DNA of 64,000 bases, from contig NZ_CP061170.1 in the NCBI RefSeq assembly GCF_011751745.2, positions 1,240,001 to 1,304,000 on the forward strand. Direction: 5' to 3'. The position numbers and the translations under genes are program-made. This DNA is from Paramicrobacterium fandaimingii (lineage in GTDB: Bacteria; Actinomycetota; Actinomycetes; Actinomycetales; Microbacteriaceae). The notes beneath the pieces were generated by a model. It was not told the DNA's origin, searched no databases, and was given only the letters and a program-made list of their open reading frames with translations. Shown piece by piece: positions 34,494 to 55,427 of this stretch; position 1 is the stretch's first letter; every line of letters starts with the position of its first letter.

Positions 34494-35567
34494 GTGGCTC
34501 TCACTATCGGAATCGTCGGACTCCCCAATGTCGGCAAATCAACCCTGTTCAACGCGCTCACCAAAAACGATGTTCTCGCGGCGAACTATCCGTTCGCAAC
34601 GATCGAACCGAACGTGGGCGTCGTCAGCCTTCCCGACTCACGGCTTGACGTTCTCGCAAAGCTCTTCAGCAGCGAGCGCATTCTGCCGGCGACGGTGTCG
34701 TTCGTCGACATCGCCGGAATCGTGCGCGGCGCGAGTGAAGGGGAGGGGCTCGGCAACAAGTTCCTCGCCAACATTCGCGAGGCTGACGCGATCGCCGAGG
34801 TGGTTCGTGGGTTCCACGACGGTGATGTCGTGCATGTCGATGGGAAGATCGACCCGAAGTCCGACATGGAGACCATCAACACCGAGCTGATCCTCGCCGA
34901 TCTCGAGACGCTCGAGCGTGCCATCACGCGTTATGAGAAAGAGGCGCGCGGCAAGAAGATCGGCCCCGAAGTACTCGCTGCGGCAAAGGAAGCGCTCGAG
35001 GTTCTGCAGGCAGGAACGCCGCTGTCAGCGGCATCCGTCGATCTCGACCCCATCAGAGAACTCGGCCTGCTGACATCGAAGCCGTTCATCTACGTCTTCA
35101 ACGTTGACGAAGAGATTTTGACGGATGCTGCCAAGAAGCAGGAGCTCGCCGCACTCGTCGCCCCGGCCGAGGCTGTGTTCCTCGACGCGAAGATCGAGTC
35201 GGAGCTGATTGATTTGGATCCTGAGGATGCCGCGGAGCTGCTGGCCTCCACAGGGCAAGACGAATCGGGGCTCGACCAGCTCGCGCGCGTGGGCTTCGAC
35301 ACGCTCGGGCTGCAGACCTACCTCACGGCGGGGCCGAAAGAGGCCCGCGCATGGACGATCGGCAAGGGCTGGAAGGCGCCGCAGGCCGCGGGCGTCATTC
35401 ACACTGACTTCGAGAAGGGCTTCATCAAGGCCGAGGTGATTTCATTCGAGGACCTTGTCGAGACTGGCTCCGTGCAGGAAGCGCGCTCGCATGGGAAGGC
35501 CCGCATGGAGGGCAAAGACTACGCGATGCAGGACGGCGACGTGGTGGAGTTCCGCTTTAACGTCTAG
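34494..35567 (+). CDS. ychF: YchF, universally conserved Obg-family ATPase
   Basis: A 357-residue P-loop NTPase that binds ATP in preference to GTP and interacts with ribosomes. G1 is GLPNVGKSTLFNAL and the G3 region is DIAGIVRGASEGEGLGNKFL. The G4 position is FNVDEE, the altered base-recognition motif that gives ATP specificity. A helical insert is followed by the C-terminal TGS domain ending GDVVEFRFNV. GTG 34494 is the start. The gene is complete, but its last 30 bases are the first of a series of near-copies found over the next 9 kb. Confidence 0.97.
   Translation: MALTIGIVGLPNVGKSTLFNALTKNDVLAANYPFATIEPNVGVVSLPDSRLDVLAKLFSSERILPATVSFVDIAGIVRGASEGEGLGNKFLANIREADAIAEVVRGFHDGDVVHVDGKIDPKSDMETINTELILADLETLERAITRYEKEARGKKIGPEVLAAAKEALEVLQAGTPLSAASVDLDPIRELGLLTSKPFIYVFNVDEEILTDAAKKQELAALVAPAEAVFLDAKIESELIDLDPEDAAELLASTGQDESGLDQLARVGFDTLGLQTYLTAGPKEARAWTIGKGWKAPQAAGVIHTDFEKGFIKAEVISFEDLVETGSVQEARSHGKARMEGKDYAMQDGDVVEFRFNV
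35538..35567. repeat. ychF 3'-end repeat R1 (native gene end)
   Basis: The ychF terminus encodes GDVVEFRFNV-stop. The following 33 bases (GCGTTA, then a second GCGTTA 16 bases on) form the promoter region of higB. This R1-plus-promoter sequence is repeated at R7. R1 is taken as the attachment side nearest the intact gene. Confidence 0.85.
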
Positions 35568-35600
35568 CGTTAATGACGCAGTGCGTTATATGTTGGTGTC

Positions 35601-35882
35601 GTGATCAGATCGTTCGGGAGTAAGGACACCGAACGACTGTGGCGTCGCGAGCGGGTGCCGTCGATCGATCCTCGGATTCATTCGGTGGCGCTGCGCAAGC
35701 TTCGTCAGGTGGGGTCCGCGGAGTCGCTCGATGATCTCCGTGTCCCACCGGGGAACCGACTTGAAGCGCTGAAAGGCAATCGGGCCGGTCAGTACAGCAT
35801 CAGGATCAATGACCAGTGGCGGATCTGCTTTGTGTGGACAGTCGCTGGGCCAGAGGAGGTGGAGATCGTTGACTATCACTGA
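35601..35882 (+). CDS. higB: HigB/RelE-type toxin of a type II toxin-antitoxin module
   Basis: A 93-residue RelE-superfamily ribosome-dependent mRNA interferase of the HigB host-inhibition group. Family marks are RKLRQVGSAESLDDLRVPPGNRLEALKG and the C-terminal GQYSIRINDQWRICFVW, with YSIRINDQWRI containing the catalytic Arg/Asp-type residues. GTG 35601 starts 33 bases after the ychF stop. It overlaps the antitoxin gene by 14 bases, the usual higBA toxin-first order. It is the first gene of the repeat-bounded array. Confidence 0.93.
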   Translation: MIRSFGSKDTERLWRRERVPSIDPRIHSVALRKLRQVGSAESLDDLRVPPGNRLEALKGNRAGQYSIRINDQWRICFVWTVAGPEEVEIVDYH

Positions 35883-36171
35883 CAAGATCGAGCCGATCCA
35901 TCCTGGCGAAGTTCTCATGGAGGACTTCATCGAGGGCTTCGGCATTACTCAGAACAAATTGGCGGTCTCGATTGGGGTGCCCCCGCGCAGGATTAACGAG
36001 ATCGTGCATGGCAAGCGCGCGATCACGGCTGACACCGCGTTGCGGCTTGGCAAATATTTCGGCACGTCAGCGCAGTTCTGGATCAATCTGCAGGCGCATT
36101 ACGACCTAGACCGTGCTGAGGATCGCGTGGCGGATCAGATTGCCGCGATTACACCGTTGACGGTCGCGTAA
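35869..36171 (+). CDS. higA: HigA antitoxin (XRE-type HTH)
   Basis: A 100-residue antitoxin and autorepressor. IEPIHPGEVLMEDFIEGFGITQNKLAVSIGVPPRRINEIVHGKRAIT is the XRE helix-turn-helix of the HigA/VapI group, and FGTSAQFWINLQ is the conserved tail. The start is TTG 35869 with GGAGGTGGAG just upstream inside higB. The longer upstream frame has no family match. It probably binds palindromic sequence near 35556-35573 (TTAACG/CGTTAA), which overlaps the ychF stop. Confidence 0.9.
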   Translation: MTITDKIEPIHPGEVLMEDFIEGFGITQNKLAVSIGVPPRRINEIVHGKRAITADTALRLGKYFGTSAQFWINLQAHYDLDRAEDRVADQIAAITPLTVA

Positions 36172-36176
36172 GTGCG

Positions 36177-37007
36177 ATGACCGCCGAAGGACAGCACCTG
36201 CTTACTTTGCGGGGATGGGACAGCGCTGGGCTCAGCGCCTTCTTTGAGCTCGTGGATCGGTACGAAGCTGGTTCTGGGCCGAGCTTCGACAGCGCAGTCG
36301 CTATGTTTTTTCCGCCATCGAGCCTGCGCACTCGTTTCTCGTTCGAGCGGGGTGCTGCCGAGATCGGACTCCAGTCGATTACCTTGCCGCCGGAGACGCT
36401 AGACAAAGATGAAGATCTGGCTGACGTTGCCGGATATCTTGCGCAGTGGGCCGATCTCGTCGTTGTTCGGCACCCGGAAATGGACGTGCTGGAGCAGCTG
36501 GCTGCACCAGGTTTTTTGCCCGTTGTCAACGCAATGACCAGCGTGAATCATCCGTGCGAGGTACTGTCTGATCTTTACGCACTTTCGCGCGATGCCGACA
36601 TTACGCAGCTGCGTTACGTGTTCGTCGGCGCGGATGGGAACATCGCGCGGGCATGGTGGGAAGCGGCTCAGGCGTTTGGTCTAGATGTTCGCCAGAGCTG
36701 TCCGTCTGAGTTGCGCGTCGTTGGGATGCCGTGGGAGGAAGATTTGCGCCACGTAATCCCGACCGCTGACGTTGTTCTCACCGATGGTCCAGGGCGTCAT
36801 GCCGAACTCCTCGGCACGTATCAGATAACGGGCGAACTGCTGAATCTTGCACCGCATGGTGTTCGGTTTGCCCCGTGCCCGCCATTTGTGCGGGGGCGTG
36901 AGATCAGCGCGGATGCGATTACACATCGCTCCTTCGTTGGATACGAGTTCAAGCGATCATTGAAGTCCGTGCAACAAGCGGTGATGGCGCGGTCGCTCTT
37001 GTCTTAA
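36177..37007 (+). CDS. Aspartate/ornithine carbamoyltransferase family protein (divergent)
   Basis: A 276-residue protein, shorter than true ATCase or OTCase (305-340). The carbamoyl-phosphate site PPSSLRTRFSFERGAAEIG keeps the S-x-R-T-R core. The second site reads NHPCEVLSDLYAL, where Glu replaces the usual Gln of HPxQ. The C-terminal MHCLP motif is changed to FAPCPPFVRG. The gene begins six bases after higA and ends abutting the next ychF-end repeat. It could be a true transcarbamoylase with a different acceptor or a non-catalytic homologue. Its lower-GC codon use (many TTT, GTT, AAC) differs from neighbours and suggests transfer. Confidence 0.75.
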   Translation: MTAEGQHLLTLRGWDSAGLSAFFELVDRYEAGSGPSFDSAVAMFFPPSSLRTRFSFERGAAEIGLQSITLPPETLDKDEDLADVAGYLAQWADLVVVRHPEMDVLEQLAAPGFLPVVNAMTSVNHPCEVLSDLYALSRDADITQLRYVFVGADGNIARAWWEAAQAFGLDVRQSCPSELRVVGMPWEEDLRHVIPTADVVLTDGPGRHAELLGTYQITGELLNLAPHGVRFAPCPPFVRGREISADAITHRSFVGYEFKRSLKSVQQAVMARSLLS

Positions 37008-37076
37008 GAGGTTGGTATCTGCGGCGGCGTGGTGGAGTTTAGGTTTAACGTCTAGTCGCATTGCGGTTCAACCTCT
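37007..37076. repeat. ychF 3'-end repeat R2
   Basis: Outer 8-base inverted ends AGAGGTTG (37007-37014) and CAACCTCT (37069-37076) enclose a segment whose frame 37026-37055 encodes GVVEFRFNV-stop. Codons differ from native ychF mostly at synonymous positions (TTT AGG TTT for TTC CGC TTT). The 21 bases after the stop match R5 at 19 of 21 positions. Confidence 0.8.
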
Positions 37077-37144
37077 CAGGTGGATCGCGTCGACCTCTCG
37101 CCGGTGGACGCGGGCGGTACACCAACGGCTGAGAGAATGTCCGG

Positions 37145-37582
37145 ATGGCCCGTACTGACTGCGAACCCGATCTCGTTCCTGAACTTCTCGTCAACGACGT
37201 GGCGAGGAGTATCGACTTCTGGTGCAACGTCTGTGGTTTCGAGGTCTCATACGATCGTCCTGACGAGGGCTTCGCGTACGTCACCCGCGGACGCGCACAC
37301 GTCATGCTCGAGCAACGTGGAGCCGGTCGGAACTGGCTGACCCAGGAGCTTGATCCACCATTCGGGCGAGGAATCAACTTCCAGATCGGCGTACCTGACC
37401 TCGAGCCGATCCTCGCCGCACTTGCGAACGCGAAGTGGTCGCTGTTCATGCAGCCAGAGACGAAGTGGTACCGCGTGAGCGACAGCGAGGAAGCAGGGGT
37501 AAGGCAGTTCCTCGTGACCGATCCCGACGGGTACTTGATTCGATTCCAGAGCTCGATCGGTCGTCGGTCCGTCGCTCGCTAG
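37145..37582 (+). CDS. VOC-family (glyoxalase/bleomycin-resistance-like) protein
   Basis: A 145-residue single-subunit vicinal-oxygen-chelate protein with the paired beta-alpha-beta-beta-beta modules. The markers are VPELLVNDVARSIDFWCNVCGFEV, ARVMLEQ-type sheet strands, and the C-terminal VRQFLVTDPDGYLIRFQSSIG, with DPDGYLIRF the hallmark. Relatives bind bleomycin or act as small dioxygenases or lyases; the specific role is unknown. It is the sole gene between repeats R2 and R3, so it looks like a single-gene insertion module. Confidence 0.9.
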   Translation: MARTDCEPDLVPELLVNDVARSIDFWCNVCGFEVSYDRPDEGFAYVTRGRAHVMLEQRGAGRNWLTQELDPPFGRGINFQIGVPDLEPILAALANAKWSLFMQPETKWYRVSDSEEAGVRQFLVTDPDGYLIRFQSSIGRRSVAR

Positions 37583-37635
37583 GGAAACCAGCACAAGCTC
37601 CGTGGCGAAGGAGCAGGTGCGCGCCCGGACAGATT

Positions 37636-37684
37636 AGAGGTTGGCCCGTGTGGGGATGTCGTCGAGTTCCGCTTCAACGTTTAG
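37636..37684. repeat. ychF 3'-end repeat R3
   Basis: It begins AGAGGTTGG like R2 and encodes EVG-x-CGDVVEFRFNV-stop in frame 37637-37684. R2 reads EVG-x-CGGVVEFRFNV. Nearly all nucleotide differences between the two are in third codon positions. The right-hand CAACCTCT of R2 is missing here. Confidence 0.8.
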
Positions 37685-38189
37685 CCGGATCGTCTGAAGT
37701 CGCCGACTCAGTGAGCGCGGCGGCGTAGTTGCGCATCGAGCGCTGGTATTGGGGCAACGTTCCTATCTGCGCTTCGATGGCGACCCGCAGTGCTTCATCC
37801 TTGCGTCCGGCGCTATGGAGTGCCAGAGCCAAGACGACGCGGGGTGCGGAGCCCGTCGATTCATGCGTCGGCGCAGCTTGAAGGACGGCGATTGCCTCGT
37901 CGAGGCGGCCGAGATTGCGAAGGGTCGATCCGTACTGGACTGCGAGCTGCGCATGTCTGGCTGCGTCGAGGCCGAGTTCGAGAGCGCGCTCGTACTCGGC
38001 ACCGGCCTCAGCCTCGAATCCCACGGAGTCGTACATGCCTGCGAGTTCGAATGCGGCCCTGCCATCGGTGGCAGGGCATGCCGCGGCCACGTCGCGCATA
38101 GCAGCCACGCCGTCATCGCAATCCAACGAGGCGAAGCGCTCCCAGAGATCAGCGACGGAGGCTTCCCACTGTTCAACTGCTGGTGTCAT
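37674..38189 (-). CDS. Tetratricopeptide-repeat protein
   Basis: A 171-residue helical protein. TPR-like motifs are AAFELAGMYDSVGFEAEAGAEYERALELGLDAARHAQ and LGRLDEAIAVLQAAP, followed by the ALALHSAGRKDEALRVAIEAQIGTLPQYQRSMRNYAAAL tail seen in TPR proteins annotated in Actinobacteria. ATG 38189 is chosen by homology to the usual MTPAVEQWEASVADLWERF start. The last residues and the stop lie inside repeat R3, so the C-terminus is set by the junction. It is alone between R3 and R4, in opposite orientation to ychF. Confidence 0.8.
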   Translation of the reverse strand: MTPAVEQWEASVADLWERFASLDCDDGVAAMRDVAAACPATDGRAAFELAGMYDSVGFEAEAGAEYERALELGLDAARHAQLAVQYGSTLRNLGRLDEAIAVLQAAPTHESTGSAPRVVLALALHSAGRKDEALRVAIEAQIGTLPQYQRSMRNYAAALTESATSDDPAKR

Positions 38190-38284
38190 AGCGCCAACTC
38201 TGCCACGACGCGAAGCTCGTGGGCATCGTGATCGGACGGGCGACACCAGCGACAGACGGCCCAAAGGTTGGTCTGTGCCGGAAC

Positions 38285-38316
38285 GCGGTGGAATAGAGGT
38301 TTGTGCTTTAACCTCT
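38285..38316. repeat. ychF 3'-end repeat R4, degenerate
   Basis: GTGGAATAGAGGTTTGTGC followed by TTTAACCTCT aligns with the repeat ends (AGAGGTT and AACCTCT) with most of the centre deleted. In the ychF frame it reads VE-stop-RFVL-stop. This is the weakest copy, and chance similarity is possible. Confidence 0.45.
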
Positions 38317-38409
38317 CCACAGAACTTATTGGGCCGCACCAAGTGTTTTGATCCCGATACTGGGGCGGATCTCCACGTCTTGCCCGATGTCCATCTCTGG
38401 CTGACTGAT

Positions 38410-39354
38410 TCAGACTTCCTGACCGAGCGGGAGCTCGCTCGAACGCGACGGTTCAACGGCACGCGCCTGTGTCGCAGGTGCGAGCGAGAGAACCAGGAGC
38501 GAGGCGCAGATGCCCGCGAGCCCAGCCCATCCGATGGCGGGGAGGCGCTCTCCGACGATGGCCACGGCCAGAATGGCGGCGATCGCGGGTTCAGTGAGGG
38601 TGAGCGTAGTCGCGGCGCTTGGATTGACGCGTGTGAGGCCGTACCCGAAGAGCAGATAGCCCAGGAACATCGGGATCAGTGCCATGTAGAGCCCGACCAT
38701 CATGGGCTGGGCCGAAGCGATGAGCGGTGCGCCGGTGATCAGAAGTACGGGCATCAGGGCAATGCCGCCCAGGCCGAAGACAGCGCCCATCGCTGCCGCG
38801 CGCCCGACGCCGCGGTTCATGAGGCGGTGAGCGCTCCACGAATACATGGCGTAGGTCGCGCCAGCAACCAGACCGAGAATGACGCCGGCGACCGTGGGGA
38901 GCGTCTCGCTCGGCGCGTCGTGCATCTTCGCAACGCACAGCACTGTGCTCCCCGCGATGCCGAGAACCGATGCGAGCATCCACCAGCCGCTGAGCCTGCG
39001 TCGCTCGATCACCCGTTCCAGAAGGCCAGAGGCGATCGGGGCAGAGCCGAGGGACACGACAGTGCCGACCGCGACGCCAGCCAGATGCATCGAGCTGTAG
39101 AAGGCCAGCGGGTAGATCAACACGGCTGCGCCTCCGGCGATCACTGTCCCACGTTGCGAAGACAGTGCGTGACGTTCCCGGCGGAGCGCGGGGGCAGCGA
39201 TGGCTGCCTGCAGGATGCCGCCAATGCCGAGCGCGGCCGCGCCCATGGCCAGCGGCCCGACTGACGGTGCGAACGTCGCCGCAGTCCCCGTGGTGCCCCA
39301 CAGGAAGGCGGCGGCGAGCACCGCGAAGATGCCGGTGGGGGAGCCTCGCTTCAC
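38410..39354 (-). CDS. EamA/DMT-family exporter
   Basis: A 314-residue drug/metabolite transporter with ten predicted helices in two EamA repeats. The first begins GIFAVLAAAFLWGTTGTAATF. The second begins LGLVAGATYAMYSWSAHRLM and ends EPAIAAILAVAIVGERLPAIGWAG, the typical EamA end motif. GTG 39354 overlaps the tetR stop (GTGA), so the exporter is translationally coupled to its presumed regulator. The substrate is unknown; amino acid or toxic metabolite export is usual. Confidence 0.9.
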   Translation of the reverse strand: MKRGSPTGIFAVLAAAFLWGTTGTAATFAPSVGPLAMGAAALGIGGILQAAIAAPALRRERHALSSQRGTVIAGGAAVLIYPLAFYSSMHLAGVAVGTVVSLGSAPIASGLLERVIERRRLSGWWMLASVLGIAGSTVLCVAKMHDAPSETLPTVAGVILGLVAGATYAMYSWSAHRLMNRGVGRAAAMGAVFGLGGIALMPVLLITGAPLIASAQPMMVGLYMALIPMFLGYLLFGYGLTRVNPSAATTLTLTEPAIAAILAVAIVGERLPAIGWAGLAGICASLLVLSLAPATQARAVEPSRSSELPLGQEV

Positions 39355-39917
39355 AGTGCCGCCAGCATCCGCGATGCGATGGCCCGGGCGTGCTCCAGGC
39401 GCTCCGGGGTGCCCTCGAGGCCTGCCCGCGCGACGGCTCCTTCGAGGAGGAAGCTGAAGTGCTCGGCCAGCTCCAGCGCCTCGGCTTCGGTGGCCACGGA
39501 TTCCAGGTTCTCGGCGAGAATCTTCTCCACCTGCTCCTTGTGTGCGCGCACGGACGAGCGGGCGGGGTGTCCGGCCGGAAACTCGGCGGCAGCATTGAGC
39601 AGCCCGCAGCCCCGGAAGCCCTTGCCGTAGGCGTCGTTCGCGTGGTCGATGTAGGCGTCGAAGACTGCCACGACCCGGTCCGTGACTGTCGAAGCTTTCG
39701 CAGAGCGCTCCCGATACAGGTCGAGCCACTCTTCGTGGCGGGCGTCGATGTAGGCGCTGACGAGCGCTGCCTTCGATGAGAAGTTGTTGTAGAGACTCTT
39801 CTTCGCGACCATGGCCTCGGAAGTGATCGTGTCAATCCCTGTCGCGTGCACGCCGTCCTCGTAGAAGCGTCTCGCCGCAGCATCGAGCAACCGCTCTCGC
39901 GCTGATCCTTGATTCAT
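39351..39917 (-). CDS. TetR-family regulator of the adjacent exporter
   Basis: A 188-residue repressor. The N-terminal HTH reads RERLLDAAARRFYEDGVHATGIDTITSEAMVAKKSLYNNFSSKAALV, the TetR_N pattern with the YNNFxSKxxL recognition-helix end. The ligand domain carries GFRGCGLLNAAAEFP, typical of the YcdC/QacR-like C-terminal family. A perfect palindrome lies 14 bases upstream of the ATG. It is probably autoregulatory and controls the EamA gene it overlaps. Confidence 0.92.
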   Translation of the reverse strand: MNQGSARERLLDAAARRFYEDGVHATGIDTITSEAMVAKKSLYNNFSSKAALVSAYIDARHEEWLDLYRERSAKASTVTDRVVAVFDAYIDHANDAYGKGFRGCGLLNAAAEFPAGHPARSSVRAHKEQVEKILAENLESVATEAEALELAEHFSFLLEGAVARAGLEGTPERLEHARAIASRMLAAL

Positions 39918-39930
39918 GTCACCCTCCCGT

Positions 39931-39956
39931 CGGTAGGTAGGTCAGTCTACCTACCG
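39931..39956. promoter_or_regulatory. Palindromic operator for the TetR-family regulator
   Basis: CGGTAGGTAG and CTACCTACCG form perfect 10-base arms around GTCAGT, immediately upstream of the tetR start. The size and position fit a TetR dimer operator overlapping the tetR-eamA promoter. A further half-site-like GACCGACC follows at 39960. Confidence 0.85.
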
Positions 39957-40136
39957 ACTGACCGACCTGGAGGTGCTTCAGTCTCTGCACGCTTGGATGC
40001 TTCCGAGCACGGGTGCGAGGTCTTAACGGCCTGCGCGAGCCCGAGATGAGGATCGTTCTCCTCGAGCGGGCTGCGGCGAGACGGCATGACGAGGTCTGGG
40101 AAGCTGAGCACGCGCAGTGGTTGCTCCGTGCCGGAG

Positions 40137-40187
40137 TGCGGCGGAGTTCCGCTTCAATGTGTAGTCGCGTTCCGGTTCAACCTCTTC
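40137..40187. repeat. ychF 3'-end repeat R5
   Basis: Frame 40137-40166 encodes SAAEFRFNV-stop (GAG TTC CGC TTC AAT GTG TAG). The 21 bases after the stop match those of R2 and end with CAACCTCT. The surrounding 39957-40204 contains no recognised gene. Confidence 0.75.
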
Positions 40188-40204
40188 ATGCTCGAAGTTG
40201 AACT

Positions 40205-40238
40205 GTCACAATAATACCGTTTTTGGTATAGTTGTGAC
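40205..40238. promoter_or_regulatory. AbiE promoter/operator palindrome directly before the abiEi start
   Basis: GTCACAATAATACC and GGTATAGTTGTGAC are near-perfect inverted repeats around a T-rich centre. The right arm contains a TATAGT-like -10 element. The ATG of abiEi follows at once (40239), implying a leaderless or nearly leaderless mRNA. Known AbiEi antitoxins bind inverted repeats in their own promoter, which fits. Confidence 0.8.
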
Positions 40239-40781
40239 ATGGCTGGCGAGACGAAGTACCGGGACATTGTGCGCGAGATCGCACTGGATCAGTACGGGTA
40301 TGTCACGACGCGAGACGCGACCGAGGCCGGTGTCCCCGCTGTAGAGCTGCCCAAGCTGGCGGCGCGAGGCGGGCTCGAGAATGTCGCATACGGGTTGTAC
40401 CGTGTGCCCGATGCTCTTCCTACGCCGTATGACCAGTTCGCCGAAGCGCTGCTTCGTGTAGGCGAGGGTGCCTATCTTCACGGCGAGTCTGTGCTCGCAT
40501 TGCTCGGACTCGGTGACGTCAACCCCCGGCGGATCAAAGTCGCGACGAGGAGGCGAGCCCGCCCTCGACTTCCTGCATTTGTGGAGCTGACAAAGGTGCG
40601 GGTTGGAGCTTCCGCTAGGTTCTACGAGGGGCTTGCGTCGCAATCTGTCGCGGATGCTCTCCTCGAATGCCGTGGGCGCATCGAGACGCAGGAACTCCTC
40701 AACGCTGCTGAGCAGGCTCGGGGCGAGGGGCTGTTGACCACTGCCGAGTGGCAGCGGGTGCGCAAGGAGATCGCGTCATGA
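40239..40781 (+). CDS. abiEi: AbiEi-family antitoxin (type IV toxin-antitoxin)
   Basis: A 180-residue antitoxin/repressor. The N-terminal winged-helix region QYGYVTTRDATEAGVPAVELPKLAARGGLENVAYGLYRV is the AbiEi_4-type DNA-binding domain. The remainder (GEGAYLHGESVLALLGLGDVNP, then RIETQELLNAAEQA) is the toxin-antagonising part. It overlaps the AbiEii gene by four bases (ATGA). AbiE systems can abort phage infection. Operator and coupled translation are as expected for autoregulation, but its toxin partner here is interrupted. Confidence 0.9.
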   Translation: MAGETKYRDIVREIALDQYGYVTTRDATEAGVPAVELPKLAARGGLENVAYGLYRVPDALPTPYDQFAEALLRVGEGAYLHGESVLALLGLGDVNPRRIKVATRRRARPRLPAFVELTKVRVGASARFYEGLASQSVADALLECRGRIETQELLNAAEQARGEGLLTTAEWQRVRKEIAS

Positions 40782-41635
40782 GTTACGCGGGTGCGCCGAC
40801 CAGCGTGCGTTCTTTGGAACAGCGCATCCGGAATCTCGAAGGAGACGACGCGTTGGCGCAAAGGCGCAGAATCAGCATGGCTCTGGTTGTCGTCGGCCAG
40901 ATGCTCCCCGCCGGGGCTATCAAAGGCGGCAGCGCGATGGCGCTCCGATTCGGACGGAGCACGCGATTCACCCGTGATCTCGATGCCGCGAGGACCGGCT
41001 CGCTCGCAGCGTTCCGTGCTGAGTTCGAGGAGGCATTGGCGCGTGGTTGGGGCGGCTTCACCGGCAGGCTCGTGCACAAAGCGGCGCCGAGCCCGGCAGC
41101 GGTGCCCACGGCGTATGTCATGCAGCCTTTCGAAGTGAAGCTCGACTACCGGGGCCGGGCGTGGTGCACGGTGAAGTTCGAGCTTGGCCATAACGAGATC
41201 GGCGACGCTGAAGAGCCCGAGCTGCACCTCGCGGACGATCTCGCAATCATGTTCACGGAGGTCGGCCTCGAAGCACCGACACCTGTTCGTGTCATGCGCG
41301 CAGACCATTAGATTGCACAGAAGCTGCACGCACTATCCGCCGAGGGCAGTGAGCGCGCACGCGATCTCGTAGATCTCCAGCTGCTCGAAAGTCGTGAGAA
41401 TCTGAACCTCGGACAGGTCGGGGAGACATGCGTACGGCTTTTCGAGTACCGGCGGCAACAGCAGTGGCCGCCGGTCATTACAGCAGTGGAGCAATGGCAT
41501 CCGCTGTATGCCGAGGCTGCTGACGGCGTGGATGCACTGCATTCCGTCGACGAAGCCGTCATATGGGTGAATGACTTCATTCGGCGAATCGCCTCGGCCG
41601 GGTCTGCGACCACCGCTGAGCATAATCGCCGATGA
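40778..41635 (+). pseudogene. abiEii: AbiEii/AbiGii nucleotidyltransferase toxin gene with an in-frame amber stop
   Basis: The full frame is 285 codons. It shows the nucleotidyltransferase start GAIKGGSAMALRFGRSTRFTRDLDAA, where GGSAM and TRDLD are the DUF1814/AbiEii hallmarks. The later VKFELGHNE segment leads to a TAG at 41309-41311, exactly where the family has a QIxxxKLHA motif. Beyond the TAG the same frame continues IAQKLHALSAEGSERARDLVDL (the KLHA..RxKDLxDL signature) to a natural TGA at 41633-41635. A single CAG-to-TAG change explains the break. The product is thus split into 177 residues plus an untranslated tail, unless the stop is read through. Confidence 0.85.
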
Positions 41636-42036
41636 CCATCGCGACGACACGAATGCTCGAACACCGCGGGGCGACGATCTCGGTCACAGCCCTCGGTAGT
41701 GACGGACCGACGGTGGTTCTGCTCCACGGCTTGGCAGGAAGCTCCCGGGGAGCTATTGCCGACCATCTGTCGTGTGCCGCATTCGTGGGTGGTGTCGTGG
41801 CGGTCATGGATGCCTTCGCGCCGGGGGAGAGGTGTCTTCTCGTCGGTCAGTCGATGGGTGCGCACACCTACCAGCGCATTGCTCAGGACGCCACCTCCGA
41901 CGAGGACCGCCCGCCGCAATCGCCCAGTCGTGAAGCGGACATCTTCTCGGACAGGCCCATTGCCATGCTGGCCCCAAGGCCTACATCTGATCCAGGATCA
42001 CCGACGAGACCGTCGAACGACTCGCCGGATATCTGA
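41632..42036 (+). pseudogene. Alpha/beta-hydrolase remnant downstream of AbiEii
   Basis: The frame begins ATG inside the AbiEii stop. It shows the oxyanion segment PTVVLLHGLAGSSRG and the nucleophile elbow LLVGQSMGAHT (GxSxG). Only about 55 residues lie between them, and no Asp/His end is present. After the elbow the sequence degenerates to a Ser/Pro/Arg-rich tail of no family resemblance. An internal deletion and loss of the C-terminal half make a working enzyme unlikely. Confidence 0.65.
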
Positions 42037-42069
42037 ACAGACTTCCTGACTCAGGACGTTAGGCCTTGT

Positions 42070-42909
42070 TTAAGAAGCGGGTGGCTCGTGGGCGGCGAGT
42101 TCTTGGGTCAATTCCATGCAACGCAGGCGGGCCGGGGAGTAGTCGTAGGGCATCTTTCCCATGGCTTCGACGACGCTCATGGACTCTTGCCCCATGCCAG
42201 GGTCTTGGTGGGCCTCGTCCTCGCCTTCATCAGCGGGAGCGGGGTGCAGAGCATCCCAGGAGTCGAAAATCGCATCATCGGCTTCCGCCAGGCCGGAATC
42301 CTCGATGACGGCATTCAATGCCTGTTCGAAGGCGTGCCGCTCGGCAGCCACCTGTGCCACACGGGGGTCGTCGACAGCAATCGTGTCGTCGAGTGCCTCC
42401 TCGGCGGCCTCAACGCGGTCGGATTCCTCCCGCAGACCCGGGCGGGTGGCCAAGGCGATGTATCGGGAGGCGTTGACGGCCGCACTGAGCGGGCTGAAGA
42501 TCCGCTCGATGACCAGGAGGTTGTCCAGGTCCGCCTGGCGCAGGGAGCCCTCTGGCAGGCCCTCGAGGCGGCTGGCGACGAAGTCGGAGAGCAGATCCAT
42601 CTTGCCGTCTGGGGTGCGCATGCGCGGCACGACAGCGACGTCGTGGTCGCTGACGGCACCAGCAGGAGCCGTGTCAGCACAGGCGTCACGGATGTCGTCC
42701 AAGGCGATCCCGGCGTCGGCCATCTTGTGGATCCACAACAGCCGGATCATGTCTTCGTAACCGTATAGGCGGCGGTCGTCACTGCCCCGTTCAGGCTCGG
42801 GGAGCAGGCCAGTCTCGTGGTAGTGACGGATCGTCCGCGGTGTCGTGCCGACGAACGATGCCGCGTCACCGATCGTGACCTGACGCGGCGGAATAAGGGA
42901 CGAATGCAT
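42070..42909 (-). CDS. MerR-family transcriptional regulator
   Basis: A 279-residue regulator. The MerR winged helix is VTIGDAASFVGTTPRTIRHYHETGLLPEPERGSDDRRLYGYEDMIRLLWIHKMADAGIALDDIRD (residues about 10-75). A long acidic helical C-terminus of unknown ligand follows. The frame opens at 42948; ATG 42909 puts the HTH at the usual distance. It is the last gene before repeat R6 and points away from it. The target is unknown; the adjoining genes are remnants, so it may have arrived with them. Confidence 0.87.
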   Translation of the reverse strand: MHSSLIPPRQVTIGDAASFVGTTPRTIRHYHETGLLPEPERGSDDRRLYGYEDMIRLLWIHKMADAGIALDDIRDACADTAPAGAVSDHDVAVVPRMRTPDGKMDLLSDFVASRLEGLPEGSLRQADLDNLLVIERIFSPLSAAVNASRYIALATRPGLREESDRVEAAEEALDDTIAVDDPRVAQVAAERHAFEQALNAVIEDSGLAEADDAIFDSWDALHPAPADEGEDEAHQDPGMGQESMSVVEAMGKMPYDYSPARLRCMELTQELAAHEPPAS

Positions 42910-42948
42910 GAGCGAGGCCTTCCTGAGCAGAGCGTGACGTGAGTCCAT

Positions 42949-43267
42949 CGGACCACAGAATGCTACGGAAGGTGCAACTCCAAATCCCTCATCGCCGGAC
43001 GCTCAACCGCCTGCGCGGTAGGGCGTGCAAGTGCAGGAGATCGTCGGTTGGACCGCCTCGGTGGGCAGCATACCGTTCGCTACCAAATTCTCCAGCGCCT
43101 GCGCATCCAGGACGTGGCTGGGGACGAAAACAGTCTCGCCGTGGTCGAGTTCCGCTTCTCGAACTGAACCTCTGATGCGCTTTGCTCGACACGGCTGCAG
43201 AGCGAGATTTCTCGTTGCTGCAACTCTCAGAGGGCTGGGCGTGGGTGCAGCGTGTGAAGGGCCTTGG
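42949..43267. other. Gene-free stretch around repeat R6, possible coding debris
   Basis: No complete gene is seen. A short frame at about 43182-43300 (LDTAAERDFSLLQLSEGWAWVQRVKG) has coding-like composition but no start region or end. It may be a remnant of a deleted module. The frame leading into R6 (HTVRYQILQRLRIQDVAGDENS) also looks protein-like and is not part of YchF. Confidence 0.4.
43138..43173. repeat. ychF 3'-end-like repeat R6, weak
   Basis: The frame encodes AVVEFRFSN-stop (GTG GTC GAG TTC CGC TTC). AACCTCT follows four bases after the shared core, like the right end of R2 and R5. Because the codons upstream look like another protein, chance similarity is more possible here than for R2, R3, R5 or R7. 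Confidence 0.55.
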
Positions 43268-43975
43268 TCAGAACTTGCGAGCTGCGACGTCCGGTCGGTG
43301 TGAAGCTGCCAGCAGCCTCTCGAGCTCGCCGGCGATCAAGGGGCGACCACGGTCTGCCAGGTAGTCATCGCCGAACCCGTCTGGACCTTCTGCGTAGATC
43401 GCGGTGTATGCGCCGGATTCGGGCTCGGCTCGCCAGGACTCTTTGAGCGGTCCCGCGTCGATCGGATCGAAGCCGAGCGTTCGCACCAGTTCGCTGACTT
43501 CATCGTTGGCCTGGGCATCGTTTCCGAACACGGGCAGTGCCGTCCGCGGCTCTGAGTTCGCGAGCAGGGGGATGTGGTGAGCCACGATATTGTTGAATGC
43601 CTTGACCAGTCGCGTGTCGGGCAGCAGCGCCTGCTCAAGCTCGGCAGTGGTCGTCTCTCGTGTGTCGAGGGTCGGAATGCGCCCGTCGCGATGGGGATAG
43701 TAGTTGCCCGTGGACAGGATCATCTTGCCGTGCAGAACGGCATGCGGGAGCCGCTCGTACGCGGCGAGCGGAATGGCGAGGACGACGAGGTCGCTGAACG
43801 CGGCGGCCTCTTGCGTTGTGCCGGCTTGAGCGTTCGCGCCCAAGCCCGCCACGAGATCGGTGAGGGTCTCGGGGCCGCGGGAGTTGGCGATCGTCACCTG
43901 GATGCCTGCATCGACCGCGAGACGCGCGATGGCTTCGCCGATGGCTCCGCTGCCGATGATTCCGATCTGGTTCAT
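43268..43975 (-). CDS. NADPH-dependent F420 reductase-like NAD(P)-binding protein
   Basis: A 235-residue Rossmann protein of the Fno/NADPH-dependent F420 oxidoreductase family. NQIGIIGSGAIGEAIARLAVDAG is the dinucleotide-binding loop, IANSRGPETL follows, and DLVVLAIPLAAYERLP and VKAFNNIVAHHI are conserved. The family also includes redox enzymes that do not use F420. ATG 43975 overlaps the ArsR-type gene (ATGA), giving a two-gene operon between R6 and R7. Confidence 0.87.
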   Translation of the reverse strand: MNQIGIIGSGAIGEAIARLAVDAGIQVTIANSRGPETLTDLVAGLGANAQAGTTQEAAAFSDLVVLAIPLAAYERLPHAVLHGKMILSTGNYYPHRDGRIPTLDTRETTTAELEQALLPDTRLVKAFNNIVAHHIPLLANSEPRTALPVFGNDAQANDEVSELVRTLGFDPIDAGPLKESWRAEPESGAYTAIYAEGPDGFGDDYLADRGRPLIAGELERLLAASHRPDVAARKF

Positions 43976-44349
43976 TGCATGTCCTTGCTACCGCCATGCG
44001 GCGGATTTTCTCGTTCTTGTGGGGTGGTTTCGGCGTCGATGGCATCGAGTACTAGGGGGAGCAGGCCTGGGAAGCGACGAGCGAGTGCGTCTGTGCGGAG
44101 CCAGTTGCGGTGACGCGTCCCGTCGACCTCCTGACTGATGAGTCCGGACTCGCGCAGGATCCTCCAATGCCGCGTGAGCGCAGACTTCGACACACCGAAG
44201 TCGGAGCTGCTGCATGCGCCACCCGGATGGGACGCGATGTGGGAGACGATTGCCCGTCTCACGGGGTCTGACAGCGCGGAAATCACGGCGAACAGATCGA
44301 TCTCGTCCTCCGTTGGGGCCAACAGGGGGCGAGCGAGTCGGCTTGCCAT
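43972..44349 (-). CDS. ArsR-type winged-helix regulator
   Basis: A 125-residue repressor. The HTH is LFAVISALSDPVRRAIVSHIASHPGGACSSSDFGVSKSALTRHWRILRESGLISQEVDGTRH, the standard ArsR order of ISALSDPxRR, a recognition helix SKSALTRHWRIL and a wing. ATG 44349 is chosen from the longer frame because the HTH then starts near residue 20. A near-palindrome lies 24 bases upstream. It is translationally coupled to the F420-reductase-like gene, which it presumably controls. Confidence 0.9.
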   Translation of the reverse strand: MASRLARPLLAPTEDEIDLFAVISALSDPVRRAIVSHIASHPGGACSSSDFGVSKSALTRHWRILRESGLISQEVDGTRHRNWLRTDALARRFPGLLPLVLDAIDAETTPQERENPPHGGSKDMQ

Positions 44350-44372
44350 TAATGGCTCCTCGAGTTCTCGTG

Positions 44373-44396
44373 CATGTATGCGTACAGACGTACATG
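44373..44396. promoter_or_regulatory. Near-palindromic operator upstream of the ArsR-type gene
   Basis: CATGTATGCGT and ACGTACATG form an imperfect inverted repeat around ACAG in the leader of the regulator gene, a suitable place for autorepression. The rest of 44397-44547 shows no gene. Confidence 0.6.
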
Positions 44397-44547
44397 TTAG
44401 CCCATGTTCGCTCTCCTGTGTACATAAGGCGTGGTCCTCATGCGACGCAGAAGTGGTTCTGGGCCTGAGCTCGTTCGAGCATGACGGCACAACTCGGCCT
44501 CGTCAGGTCGGATCGGCCTGGAGCGCCACACGTTCGGTAACCGTGGC

Positions 44548-44606
44548 GACATAGTGGAGTTTCGGTTTAACGTCGAGCGTTAATGACGGTCTGCGTTAGA
44601 TGCTGG
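44548..44606. repeat. ychF 3'-end repeat R7 plus higB-promoter copy
   Basis: Frame 44548-44583 encodes DIVEFRFNVER-stop, with codons ATA GTG GAG TTT CGG TTT AAC GTC. The next stretch (GCGTTAATGACGGTCTGCGTTAGATG) parallels the 33 bases between ychF and higB closely, including both GCGTTA elements. R7 is thus a copy of the ychF-higBA junction rather than of the gene end alone. Bases 44607-44692 hold nothing recognised. Confidence 0.78.
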
Positions 44607-44692
44607 GCTGGACCAAAAGGTTTCGATCGTCACCACTTACGGGTGAATGCAGCTGCCACCGCGTCCGTCGGGCACAATACTGAGATTCAGGT

Positions 44693-45274
44693 TCAGGAGG
44701 GTTCGATCGTGCGGCGCATGACGGTGTTCTTCAGCCCCTTAGAGCGGACGAACTCGAAGCCGGCATCCTCGTACATCGTGCGTGTCCCGTTGTAGACGAA
44801 CGAGTTGTTCATCCTCTTCTCACCGATCTCGTGCGGATATCCCTCGACGACACCGCCACCCCTGGCGGCGATCTGTTCGAGCGCACCGGCCAGAGCAGAC
44901 TTGGCGTACCCCTGTTTGCGATACCGCTTATCGACGAAGATGCAGGTGACGCGATAGTCGGGTGTGACGTCGGCCTCGGCGAGGTACTGCTTTCTGTGAT
45001 GGATGCTCGGCAACTCCTCTGGAGTGCCGTACTCCGCCCACGCGATCGCCTCATCGCCAATCATCACCATCGCCGCGTGAGCCTGTCCGGCCTCGACCAG
45101 CCGTTTCTTGAGAGCGCGATTACCCTCGTGACCCTGCCCTCGCTCGGCGCAGTCGGGGTGGAAGTTGATGCACCAGCACCCACCGAAGATCCCGTTGTGC
45201 CGCTCCACCAGTGCGGAGAACGCGTCCCAAGTGTGCGCGGTCAATGGCTGAATCGAGTATCCGTTTGTCGCCAT
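44693..45274 (-). CDS. GNAT-family N-acetyltransferase
   Basis: A 193-residue acetyl-CoA-dependent acyltransferase. The acetyl-CoA loop is FVDKRYRKQGYAKSALAGALEQIA (the R/QxxGxG/A-type motif A). The N-terminal FGGCWCINFHPDC and the MIGDEAIAWAEYG strands fit the subgroup that acetylates small molecules. ATG 45274 is used. It sits just beyond repeat R7, reading towards it. The substrate is unknown. Confidence 0.88.
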   Translation of the reverse strand: MATNGYSIQPLTAHTWDAFSALVERHNGIFGGCWCINFHPDCAERGQGHEGNRALKKRLVEAGQAHAAMVMIGDEAIAWAEYGTPEELPSIHHRKQYLAEADVTPDYRVTCIFVDKRYRKQGYAKSALAGALEQIAARGGGVVEGYPHEIGEKRMNNSFVYNGTRTMYEDAGFEFVRSKGLKNTVMRRTIEPS

Positions 45275-45474
45275 GCCGCCAATTTAAACACCTCATACGG
45301 ACATCCGCACCTGGTTCGGAGTATTCTGCACGGTCCATTGCCAATACGTGGCGGCTGGAGCAGATCCTCGATAGTCTCCCGTCCATGGATATGTTGGGTG
45401 GGGAACACATCGCGGAGGCCCAGTTGGCCGTCTGGCGCAAGCTGGCCCAGGGGATGCATGCTCGCTACTTGGTC

Positions 45475-45594
45475 AATGACTTCGGCTCATCCGAGGAATT
45501 CTGGATGAACCTGCAGTCCAATTTCGAGCTGAGGCTGGAGCGTCGCATGCTGCGGAACAATGTCGCCGCGATCTCGCCGCTGGAGGTTGCGTGA
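45475..45594 (+). pseudogene. HigA antitoxin C-terminal fragment
   Basis: About 40 codons match the C-terminus of HigA (DFGSSEEFWMNLQSNFELR, ending VAAISPLEVA, against FGTSAQFWINLQ and IAAITPLTVA in the complete gene). The HTH and the toxin are gone. The preceding codons (45385-45474) do not resemble HigA. Its position after the R7 copy of the ychF-higBA junction suggests a deleted second module. Confidence 0.7.
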
Positions 45595-45923
45595 GCTGCG
45601 TCGAGCTCCGCGGACGCCTCGTCTGCGCGAACCGAGCGGAGGCGGCCACAATTGAACGTCACCTGACCCGACACATCGAGCTTACGCGAGAGGAGCCTGG
45701 CTGCCTTTTGTTCGAAGTGCGCCCGACCGGGGACCCGCTCGTGTGGTCTGTCGCGGAGAAGTTTGCGGGACAGGAGTCCTTCGCTGCGCATCAAACGAGG
45801 CTCGCGGATAGTGAGTGGGGTCGAGCTACTGCTGGCATCAAACGGGAATACACGGTGTCGTCTGGCGGCAGAAAACCTGCTGCCGTCATTACGGACGAAC
45901 TGGATATGGGGCCACAGACCTGA
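45591..45923 (+). CDS. Antibiotic biosynthesis monooxygenase (ABM)-domain protein
   Basis: A 110-residue dimeric alpha/beta-barrel ABM protein of the YgiN/putative quinol monooxygenase type. The main motif is LVCANRAEAATIERHLTRHIELTREEPGCLLFEVRPTG, followed by VAEKFAGQESFAAHQTRLADSEW. GTG 45591 overlaps the HigA-fragment stop, mirroring how the carbamoyltransferase-like gene follows complete higA. Quinone handling is likely but not shown. Confidence 0.85.
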   Translation: MSCVELRGRLVCANRAEAATIERHLTRHIELTREEPGCLLFEVRPTGDPLVWSVAEKFAGQESFAAHQTRLADSEWGRATAGIKREYTVSSGGRKPAAVITDELDMGPQT

Positions 45924-45941
45924 TTCACACCTCATAGATGT

Positions 45942-45968
45942 CTTGGGCCGCGCAGAACGCGGCCCAAG
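45942..45968. terminator. Terminator after the ABM gene
   Basis: CTTGGGCCGCG and CGCGGCCCAAG form perfect 11-base arms with a 5-base CAGAA loop, followed by CTTTC. It ends the array-associated transcripts. The segment 45969-46208 contains no gene I can support. Confidence 0.85.
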
Positions 45969-46208
45969 CTTTCGGCCAGCGCGCGTAGGGCGCCACGTTC
46001 CATCCCACGAGGTGTCGTGCACGCCGCTGGCCATGAGCGCCGTACTAATCGCCGTGGATGCGGGGGAGTGCGTGGTATTTCGTACCTCCGGCCCGCATCC
46101 AATGGCCCTGCAAGATGCATATGCGGCATCCGCGTCAGAGTGGTTCCCCTCCAACCCGTGGGGGCGTATTCTCTTTATCGAGGCGACCAAATTGAGGGAG
46201 GCATCGAC

Positions 46209-46379
46209 ATGTCTGTCCCAGACGAAGTTTCATCAGATGAGCAGGTTCCAGCTCCAGGTGAGCGATTGGTCCCCGAACTCGAGGCAGATGAGACGGTCGC
46301 ACCGCGGCCGGAGGAAGAAATCGCCGACGAGCTTCGGGCGGAACCGGACGTCGAAGACCATAGTCGGGGTCACGACTGA
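46209..46379 (+). CDS. Small acidic protein of unknown function
   Basis: A 56-residue frame starting at ATG 46209 behind a very good ribosome site (TTGAGGGAGG, 7 bases away). The product (MSVPDEVSSDEQVPAPGERL...) is rich in Glu, Asp and Pro, has no hydrophobic segment, and ends EDHSRGHD. The strong ribosome site is the main support. No family is recognised. The flanks 45969-46208 and 46380-46610 appear empty. Confidence 0.6.
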   Translation: MSVPDEVSSDEQVPAPGERLVPELEADETVAPRPEEEIADELRAEPDVEDHSRGHD

Positions 46380-46610
46380 TTTCGGGTACACAGGCCGCGA
46401 TTATGAACGTCGCGATCGTCCGTTACGGCTCTCACCATCATGAAGGTGGTGCTGATCACGAGGTCTGCCGATTTCAGATCGCGTTGTACGCGCAATAGCT
46501 CCCTGATGGGTCTTCGCACGTCACATTAACCGGAAGCGACTACCACGTAACTACGATGAGCGGTAGGCGACGCCGTCCCGGCGTCAGCCGCCAGACTGAA
46601 GGAGATTGGG

Positions 46611-47384
46611 ATGCCGAACGTCAGCGAACGCGCACACACATTGGCTTCAGCGCACGAGTCCGGTCGTGTCGTCGTGCTTCCCACGGTGTGGGACGTCTGG
46701 AGCGCTCGCTTAGCGGTGGATGCCGGTTTCGAGGGGATCACAATCGGAAGCCACCCTGTGGCCGACGCGATCGGGAGCGCTGATGGCGAGAACATGGACT
46801 TCACCGAATACCTCGCCGTCGTCAAACGCATCGTCGACGCGGTCGAGGTTCCCGTGAGTGCCGATGTCGAGTCTGGTTATGGGTTGGTGCCTGACGAGCT
46901 GATTGGGCGGCTTCTCGAGGTCGGCGCGGTCGGGGCGAACATCGAGGACGTCGTTCATTCTGAAGGCAAACGCGTGCGCGATCGCGCTGAGCATGCAGAT
47001 TACATTGCCGCTGCGCGCCGCGCTTCCGACGAAGCAGACATCCCCTTCGTGATCAATGGGCGAACGGATGCTGTCAAGCTCGGCACTGATGTTTTCTCTG
47101 ACCCTCTCTCGGAAGCCGCCGAGCGCCTGAGGCTGATGGAGCAGGCAGGCGCCCGCTCCGTCTACCCGGTAGGGCTGACGACCGCCGACGAGGTGACGCG
47201 TCTCGTCGAGGCCGTCTCAGTCCCGGTCAATGTCACGGCGCATCCCGTCGACGTTCACGGCGCCGGGGACCTGGCGGCACTCACCGCGTTGGGCGTGCGC
47301 CGCGTTTCGTTTGGCCCGTTGTGGCAGAAGTGGCTTGCCGCCCTGTCGTCGGCTCAGCTGGCCTCATGGTCATCGAACGGTTGA
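46611..47384 (+). CDS. Isocitrate lyase/phosphoenolpyruvate mutase superfamily protein
   Basis: A 257-residue TIM-barrel of the ICL/PEPM superfamily (2-methylisocitrate lyase and oxaloacetate decarboxylase relatives). Markers are LPTVWDVWSARLAVDAGFEGITIGSHPVAD, the metal/substrate site PVSADVESGYG, the VGANIEDVVHSEGKRV loop and INGRTDAV. ATG 46611 follows GAAGGAGA. The catalytic loop lacks the KKCGH of true isocitrate lyase, so it is probably a lyase or decarboxylase of an unknown substrate. Confidence 0.9.
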   Translation: MPNVSERAHTLASAHESGRVVVLPTVWDVWSARLAVDAGFEGITIGSHPVADAIGSADGENMDFTEYLAVVKRIVDAVEVPVSADVESGYGLVPDELIGRLLEVGAVGANIEDVVHSEGKRVRDRAEHADYIAAARRASDEADIPFVINGRTDAVKLGTDVFSDPLSEAAERLRLMEQAGARSVYPVGLTTADEVTRLVEAVSVPVNVTAHPVDVHGAGDLAALTALGVRRVSFGPLWQKWLAALSSAQLASWSSNG

Positions 47385-47432
47385 ATGACAATTTGGCCGC
47401 CCAATCCTGGTGTTTCGATCAGGTCGTCTCCG

Positions 47433-47906
47433 TCAGAGGGGGAAGATTTCTCCAGAAAAGGGGGAGAAGTCGACCCACGAGTACCGAAATCTACGACTCG
47501 TGAACACCCAGCCATTACCCGAGCGTCGTAGGCGATCGGTCCACACGCCGGTGTTCTGATAGTAGCTCTCTCCAGGACCGCGCGCGGCCTCGTGGCACAT
47601 ACTGCGGGCGGTGGCCTCATCGCCGTTGATCTCGATGGAGCCTTGTACCGTGAATTGAATGAAGTAGTCTCTCTCATCCCGAAGCGCGCGCAGCATCGAC
47701 ACGATGTTGTCTACCCCCTTTGCGCGACTCTCGAAGGGCTGATTTTCGGTGCCTCCGAGTACCCACTCGGAATCGTTGGCCCACAACGCGCGAAAACCGT
47801 CGTAGTCGGCGTGAGTCGAGGCATCGGCGAAGCGGGCGGTTGCATCGCGGATAGCCGCTTCGTCCAGCAGGCGAGTAAGTGCAGCTGCATTTTCTGTGTT
47901 GTTCAT
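47433..47906 (-). CDS. SnoaL-like (NTF2-fold) protein
   Basis: A 157-residue NTF2-fold protein. The EAAIRDATARFADASTHADYDGFRALWANDSEWVLGG segment and the C-terminal GNGWVFTSRRFRYSW strand match the SnoaL_4 group, where Asp and Arg in the cone can act in catalysis. ATG 47906 is the first with family alignment; the frame continues upstream to 48002. It lies convergent with the PEP mutase-like gene. Function is unknown. Confidence 0.85.
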   Translation of the reverse strand: MNNTENAAALTRLLDEAAIRDATARFADASTHADYDGFRALWANDSEWVLGGTENQPFESRAKGVDNIVSMLRALRDERDYFIQFTVQGSIEINGDEATARSMCHEAARGPGESYYQNTGVWTDRLRRSGNGWVFTSRRFRYSWVDFSPFSGEIFPL

Positions 47907-48061
47907 GGGGCAATCATGCGCCCACTCCGGAGAACGCGCCAGGGAGGGCCCGACGGTAGGAATAGCGGTGCCACTCAGTTGGGGTTCCGGTTTTATTGTC
48001 ACATCGCGGTGCCTGCTGGTGGCGTGAACAGGTCGTTCATGGCACGCGACGAATCACTCAT

Positions 48062-49258: not shown

Positions 49259-49386
49259 CCGGACTCCCATCATCGGGGAACCGAAGTTAGCTCCTGGTTC
49301 GAGTGTACGTCGAGTGCTCACGGGCAGGCTGAGTGGGTCGCCTTCGTCGACGAGAGGGCCCAAGACTTCTATCGTGCCCGTGGGCG

Positions 49387-50990: not shown

Positions 50991-51006
50991 TCATCGCGTG
51001 AGCCTG

Positions 51007-55419: not shown

Positions 55420-55427
55420 CTGGATAC

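Follow-up and report, generated by a model that had tools for sequence, protein, structure and literature searches.

This analysis concerns the DNA downstream of ychF in Paramicrobacterium fandaimingii, within a stretch of 64 kb (the window: positions 1,240,001–1,304,000 of the 3.62-Mb single-contig genome). The 3′ end of ychF appears to serve one clade of large serine integrases (LSIs), found in Micrococcales and kin, as the bacterial attachment site (attB), and the window appears to hold an accretion array of six integrase-free cassettes. From sequence comparisons, the probability of this reading is about three in four. Each cassette would end in a left half of phage-attachment-site (attP) type (P) joined to a right half formed by the ychF tail (B′), where the next cassette would begin. 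By supplying a native ychF tail, an inserted cassette would restore a B–B′ site at ychF, which would explain why insertion could be repeated. An LSI brought by another element would act in trans, integrating and excising the P–B′ cassettes. The array would grow at the ychF side, and that of the window is presumably idle at present.

The native ychF end lies at 35541–35567, and 3′ of it there are six displaced copies, one of which is degenerate. All copies of the ychF tail that had been named in a first-pass annotation of the same DNA were found, on the + strand: the cores start at 37029, 37658, 40138, 43141 and 44551, and the degenerate copy is at 38285. The copy at 43141 encodes VVEFRFSN*. 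The core pattern GTNGTNGARTTYMGNTTYAAYGT, run over the 64-kb window with up to three mismatches, gave six matches where 0.02 were expected, and none of 100 shuffles that preserved dinucleotides reached that number. Apart from ychF itself, the pattern picks up four displaced copies and a second partial core at 40161, and it misses the copies at 38285 and 43141. With a 68-base copy-type query against the whole genome, the matches comprised six places at the ychF locus, with E from 1.5e-24 to 0.21, and three outside it, all with E >1. A second partial core 23 bp past the first (TAGTCGCGTTCCGGTTCAACCTCT type) is seen in the window at 37052 and 40161, and also at five loci in other genomes (L047, L113, L152, L176 and L180; loci and genomes that must be told apart carry L and G numbers).

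The architecture of the copies points to the class of enzyme. For LSIs, an attP half-site of 25 bp has been described, with the outer motif of attB shifted 5 bp toward the centre (PMC3783163; this and the other papers given by PMC number are cited for their accessible parts). Statistics of the left arm were taken from 166 copies picked on the ychF core only, the left arm being unused in the selection. In these, conservation starts on the left at −26 and stops on the right at the ychF stop codon. The left arm reads GAGGTT or GACGTT, nine bases, CGGAAC and GTGG, whereas the right half is the ychF tail, TGGA-GTTCCG-N4-AACGT to the stop. To the left of true ychF ends there is coding sequence, whereas the left arm of the copies has no coding role. 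The left half of 25 bp has attP geometry and the right half of 20 bp has attB geometry, with the outer motif shifted by 5 bp. The left GTT is at the long attP spacing in 85/166 copies and at the short attB spacing in 1/166, and the right AAC is at the short attB spacing in 156/227 copies and at the long attP spacing in none of the 227. The central dinucleotide, taken as the site centre on symmetry grounds, is GT; among 226 copies, the fraction with G at −1 is 0.95 and that with T at +1 is 0.93. Thus, as judged by half-site spacings and the published rule, the displaced copies are P–B′ hybrids and the ychF end is a B–B′ site.

At ychF ends of LSI type the tail is altered (e.g. RHGGTSGTGKK*), and the AAC is at the attP′ spacing in 7/10 and at the attB′ spacing in 0/10. 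Such spacing would follow if the attP of full LSI elements were symmetrical and 50 bp long. The last residues of YchF vary among relatives (RFNV, RFNN, RFSN, RFAV, RFST, RH...; L034, L050, L100, L118, L134 and L220), apparently due to mobile elements that replace the gene end.

The genes found beside such sites support an LSI, rather than a tyrosine integrase, as the array recombinase, as far as gene content and site geometry can tell. The lead to LSIs was a viral contig (L245, 1386–4007) in which a tyrosine integrase and an LSI flank one ychF-type site. It was first read as a phage attP; that reading was replaced, and the contig is better taken as a place where an LSI element meets a tyrosine-integrase prophage at a single ychF-type site, probably as tandem elements. 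Of 396 genomes from the order, 20 have a relative of its LSI. Among 21 loci with this type of LSI, a site is at the LSI start in three (L293, L294 and L295), a count that omits L297, where the site is on the opposite side. In Brevibacterium casei (L219) and Frigoribacterium (L092), too, LSIs adjoin sites of array type, the LSI start adjoins the left arm in L335 and L339, and LSIs start directly 3′ of ychF in L298, L301 and L306. Elements bounded by ychF on one side and by a P–B′ site on the other measure about 11.8 kb (L335), 8.3 kb (L336) and 24 kb (L338 to L092). LSIs of the B. casei type occur in 8/396 genomes, seven of the eight lying within 15 kb of an altered-tail ychF end; in the eighth (G353) the LSI is on an 11.5-kb contig without ychF. 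Eleven LSIs form one clade (support 100/98), and all 11 are beside a ychF-type site or at most 11 kb from an altered ychF end. On the LSI tree, the label "ychF site" requires three changes, scored before at least five further rows were placed at ychF. LSI-bearing and LSI-free units are seen together in the B. casei locus and in L339, where two more copies come after the site adjoining the LSI; the window shows no such pairing.

The first-pass annotation had proposed that integrases targeting the gene end built the array, had noted that no recombinase is present, and had suggested that one be sought in other genomes. The attachment site at the ychF 3′ end is supported, and the class of enzyme can now be added, since LSIs were found elsewhere beside such sites or altered ychF ends; the modules examined are themselves without an LSI. 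The window contains no recombinase that matches the tyrosine- or serine-recombinase profiles.

That the modules move can be seen from comparisons between genera. Between genome G277 and a Nesterenkonia metagenome-assembled genome, module A (2,760 bp) shows 97% identity, with flanks at the chance level of 0.53 (null for flank similarity: mean 0.53, maximum 0.58, n=39). G277 and Kocuria marina share the block of modules A and B (5,204 bp) at 96.3% identity, with the B part (2,410 bp) reaching 99.5%; the block begins at ychF in Kocuria and after other DNA in G277, and terminates at a site in both. In Nesterenkonia, module A is followed by a HigBA cassette in place of B. Further pairs with flanks at chance are 763–764 bp long at 81% identity (G006 and Paeniglutamicibacter) and 745–766 bp at 85% (G031 and G202). 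For a 17-member cluster, 12 pairs were computed in the flank test. The pair L135/L217, both Kocuria, has its left neighbour in common and is not independent, and several module clusters are alike over part of their length, down to 0.38. In G003, of the same genus as the window, the block is absent: ychF is followed by 1.76 kb of other DNA and then by the counterpart of window positions 44688–55787. The acetyltransferase-gene segment at the outer edge of the array, 44688–45371, is inverted in G003 (L033:2975–3658). Because modules are near-identical between genera and the DNA beyond their sites is unrelated, they are, on sequence grounds, mobile units bounded by the sites. A fixed gene order among related genomes would have spoken against the first-pass annotation's repeatedly used attachment site; the order differs, and that part of the proposal is upheld by sites in relatives, by near-identical modules that end at sites, by G003 without the block and by LSIs elsewhere.

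The sites are widely distributed. A strong ychF match (E ≤1e-110) was found in 56/59 genomes, three incomplete genomes having weak matches only, presumably to paralogues. Where the DNA downstream of ychF was read, displaced copies were present in 8 of 20 relatives (G001, G004, G006, G009, G011, G017, G024 and G031). A strict copy-type pattern (≤3 mismatches) matched in 84 of 299 family genomes, many matches being ychF itself; by manual reading, at least 32 of the 299 have a copy-type match, a lower bound that misses degenerate copies such as those of G001. An exact copy-type 18-mer was present in 94 contig stretches, of which many belong to Arthrobacter, Kocuria, Brevibacterium, Brachybacterium, Nesterenkonia and Demequina; other matches, for example in Flavobacterium, Balneola and Rhizobium, lie in unrelated coding DNA. 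Removal of six duplicates left 151 loci, 19 of them without a site; 132/151 have a site and 111/151 a displaced copy, with a maximum of seven copies per locus. The comparison of ychF downstream regions suggested in the first-pass annotation thus extends sites of the same type to other genomes of the genus, the family and the order. Array-like sites also occur in a record of Nocardia farcinica (L251, NZ_LN868939.1, labelled plasmid 2), where a cassette start is identical to that of Nesterenkonia L134; either transfer or a mixed assembly would account for this.

In viral contigs, the two left-arm patterns gave 0 matches and the right-half pattern matched four contigs. A search of plasmid and phage collections with the 49-base site consensus gave no match spanning 80% of its length. 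MT836021 (L248) was rejected as a phage or plasmid attP: it carries ychF with a HigBA cassette and resembles host DNA. Two other candidates from the attP search, L249 and L250, are unmatched by the site expression.

Across genomes, 173 modules are bounded by two visible sites, with a median of 1.3 kb and a 5th–95th percentile range of 0.42–4.7 kb; the loci are 3–20 kb long, so that short modules are over-represented. In none of the 173 was there LSI homology, even as remnants, in tblastn searches with six LSIs, a result that holds for short modules. Together with the absence of any PF07508 protein from the window's genome, this suggests that the cassettes are integrase-free and probably mobilised in trans. 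The 54 incomplete first segments hold two intact LSIs, two N-terminal remnants of 59 residues and, over 6 kb from the site, two fragments. HigB or HigA homologues are present in 27/173 modules, the HigB start being at offset 61 in 19. The gene after HigBA varies: it is carbamoyltransferase-like in the window, an alpha/beta hydrolase in L117, a member of the aminoglycoside-2''-adenylyltransferase family in L181 and an acetyltransferase in L100, L115, L172, L209 and L219. In G001, the HigBA part of cassette 1 is present again at the second site. A HigBA unit with interchangeable cargo would be a common cassette type and may stabilise the array. A cargo census of 150 open reading frames (ORFs), drawn at random from 359, found 136 Pfam families, with at most six ORFs per family.

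The features of the array in the window are listed in Table 1.

Table 1. The ychF end, cassettes, sites and outer flank in the window.
Feature	Position	Strand	Description
ychF	34494..35567	+	357 aa; end is the attB-type site
ychF attB-type site	B half 35525-35544; B′ half 35545-35564	+	centre GT 35544/35545
Cassette 1	35545..37032	+	HigB 35601-35882; HigA in ORF 35809-36171; carbamoyltransferase-like gene 36177-37007
Site 1	37008..37052	+	P half 37008-37032 and B′ half 37033-37052
Cassette 2	37033..37661	+	glyoxalase/VOC gene 37145-37582
Site 2	37637..37681	+	P half and B′ half
Cassette 3	37662..38288	-	TPR gene, ORF 37674-38462 as listed
Site 3, degenerate	38264..38315	+	left half retained; right half without ychF-tail coding
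Cassette 4	38289..40141	-	EamA transporter ORF 38410-39729; TetR regulator 39351-39917; ORFs overlap as listed
Site 4	40117..40161	+	P half and B′ half; second partial core starts at 40161
Cassette 5	40142..43144	both	AbiEi 40239-40781 (+); short AbiEii 40748-41311 (+); ORF 41632-42036 (+); MerR 42070-42948 (-)
Site 5	43120..43164	+	right half codes ...VVEFRFSN*; left half weakly conserved
Cassette 6	43145..44554	-	F420-oxidoreductase-like 43268-43975; ArsR-type HTH 43972-44490
Site 6	44545..44606	+	followed by HigBA-type cassette start sequence, 84% to 35535-35596; HigBA genes absent
Chromosomal flank	44688..55787		matches array-free G003, 78-94%; first 684 bp inverted in G003

Pfam matches in the array (HigB, helix-turn-helix (HTH) antitoxin, aspartate/ornithine carbamoyltransferase-like, glyoxalase/VOC, TPR_5, EamA, TetR, AbiEi, AbiEii (short), MerR, F420 oxidoreductase and ArsR-type HTH) bear out the module contents read from the sequence at first pass (HigBA, VOC, TPR, EamA with TetR, AbiE, MerR, ArsR and an F420-type gene). 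The ORF in cassette 5 that had been read as a hydrolase remnant has no Pfam match. In the short AbiEii gene, the match spans profile positions 17–122 of 238. The ORF of cassette 3 extends beyond site 3; since its TPR_5 match is limited to residues 135–250, the gene probably starts inside the cassette.

Several observations weigh against the proposal of cassettes gathered by an LSI at ychF. The right AAC motif is missing in 71/227 copies, and in 80/166 copies the GTT is at neither tested left position. There is no PF07508 protein in the window's genome, nor in that of Kocuria marina (G679), and the site-adjacent LSI of L092 falls outside the clade. The age gradient predicted along arrays, with the newest module next to ychF as the first-pass annotation had suggested, is not significant, 521 of 5000 within-array shuffles being as high. 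Hybrid sites of attL or attR type are not recombined by known LSIs without a directionality factor, according to the accessible part of PMC3783163, which also reports attP × attP recombination for the A118 integrase and for CcrA/CcrB. The weak point is that the cassettes are P–B′ whereas LSI elements leave an altered ychF tail, so that the route from a P–P′ element to a P–B′ cassette is unexplained. Tentatively, and with somewhat less than even probability, the system could be seen as a serine-integrase analogue of the integron, with the ychF end as a fixed entry site and one attP-type site in each P–B′ cassette; a newly arrived LSI from the ychF clade could then insert, excise and shuffle cassettes of other origins. 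A directionality factor would be unnecessary, because insertion would regenerate B–B′ at ychF and P–B′ at the cassette end.

Alternatively, the modules could be decayed LSI elements, each of which lost its own integrase beside the left arm, and mobilisation in trans would be superfluous. The two 59-residue N-terminal remnants (L189 and L147) lie exactly 38 bp from the site, the position of the intact gene in L219, and cis-mobilizable elements of such origin have been described in Dehalococcoides (PMC3146451). However, the 173 bounded modules, among which long ones are under-sampled, hold no LSI homology, remnants included; near-identical LSI-free modules of 2.4 and 2.8 kb are present in different genera; and the ychF tail left by LSI-bearing elements differs from that of the cassettes. 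Decay of this kind is the less likely account, though it is the strongest of the alternatives.

Much less probable is a hotspot of homologous recombination without a site-specific enzyme, acting through short repeats or flanks. In its favour, the repeats offer potential short homology and joint transfer of modules A and B may have occurred; however, edge homology spans only about 30–50 bp, outside which similarity is at chance level, and this account is opposed by the conserved non-coding left arm and the LSI genes alongside. That the modules are what is left of tyrosine-integrase prophages inserted at the ychF end is, if anything, slightly more improbable still. Relatives of the L245 tyrosine integrase lie directly 3′ of an intact ychF end in 5 of 21 places (L256, L261, L262, L264 and L272), so another kind of prophage does use the same gene end. 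The probable far ends of two such prophages have only GTTCCGCTTCAACGT in common, without the left arm of the array, and it is this left-arm geometry that disfavours them as the source of the modules. No PF00589 protein was found within 20 kb of ychF in 10 genomes, and in the 9,962 ORFs of 141 loci a tyrosine-integrase profile, which does recover its 20 seeds, yielded a single match with E <1e-3, the remnant in L198; on both counts, a tyrosine recombinase was rejected as the array enzyme. Finally, chance likeness of unrelated peptides that end like YchF, conceivable as the encoded tail is short, is refuted by the six matches against 0.02 expected and by conservation that includes the non-coding left arm. 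The first-pass annotation had asked whether the repeats might be no closer to YchF than to other proteins with a similar end; they match ychF ends.

The preferred reading, an LSI-served accretion array at ychF, would have several consequences. Many actinobacteria would possess a locus for gene exchange, recognisable from a single short motif and legible one cassette at a time. For one clade of LSIs, this locus would supply many natural sites of attP, attB and hybrid type, on which the 5-bp rule and the hybrid-site barrier are testable by natural variation. If integrase-free cassettes are indeed mobile in trans, small accessory genes (toxin-antitoxin, acetyltransferase and aminoglycoside-adenylyltransferase-like genes) would have a non-integron cassette route between genera.

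Several known systems resemble the ychF array. The staphylococcal cassette chromosome (SCC) elements at rlmH have large serine recombinases, insert at the 3′ end of a housekeeping gene, form tandem elements and include recombinase-free forms, all of which have parallels here; they differ in their Ccr pair, in rlmH as the target and in their staphylococcal hosts, whereas here the target is ychF and the window has no LSI. In the accretion of streptococcal integrative and conjugative elements (ICEs) and cis-mobilizable elements (CIMEs), elements that lack an integrase are flanked by attL- and attR-type sites and adjoin related mobile elements. Integrase-less units between hybrid-type sites are also found at ychF, but the streptococcal systems are conjugative, mostly use other integrases and have much larger units. 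Integrons hold an array of small cassettes behind a fixed entry site, with toxin-antitoxin and resistance-like cargo, as does the ychF array. Unlike in integrons, no integron-type tyrosine integrase was found beside the entry site, the sites have double-strand geometry of LSI type, and the cassette genes in the window are on both strands, whereas integron genes are mostly in one orientation. An attC reading of the sites was rejected, as the boxes, judged by eye, are in reverse order. By enzyme, the ychF array is not an integron.

The closest published description concerns the ssrA islands of Dehalococcoides, which have a CcrB-like serine recombinase, DsiB, and of which 15 of 31 lack an integration module (PMC3146451). 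As far as that source describes them, they share tandem units bounded by 3′-end repeats of one essential gene, a one-sided conserved motif and serine recombinases; they differ in using a tmRNA gene, in being confined to one genus, in their larger size and in their reductive dehalogenases, whereas the units here use ychF, are spread over many genera, have a median of 1.3 kb and would involve another LSI group. Pneumococcal prophages also insert adjoining ychF; their attB is intergenic and upstream of ychF, and the accessible parts of PMC10383233 and PMC8637289 describe neither tail duplication nor an array. No description of a ychF array was among the literature matches listed, subscription papers, preprints and supplements being outside the search; YchF together with "serine recombinase" gave only PMC8637289, the accessible part of which concerns another site, and "ychF" is absent from the main text of PMC10083194 and from the accessible part of PMC10654092. 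By analogy, the architecture would be that of the Dehalococcoides ssrA islands, SCC and CIME accretion, and the ychF array would be a variant of serine-recombinase accretion loci; what is new here is ychF as the target, the wide host range, the cassette-sized modules and the recurring HigBA unit with varied cargo.

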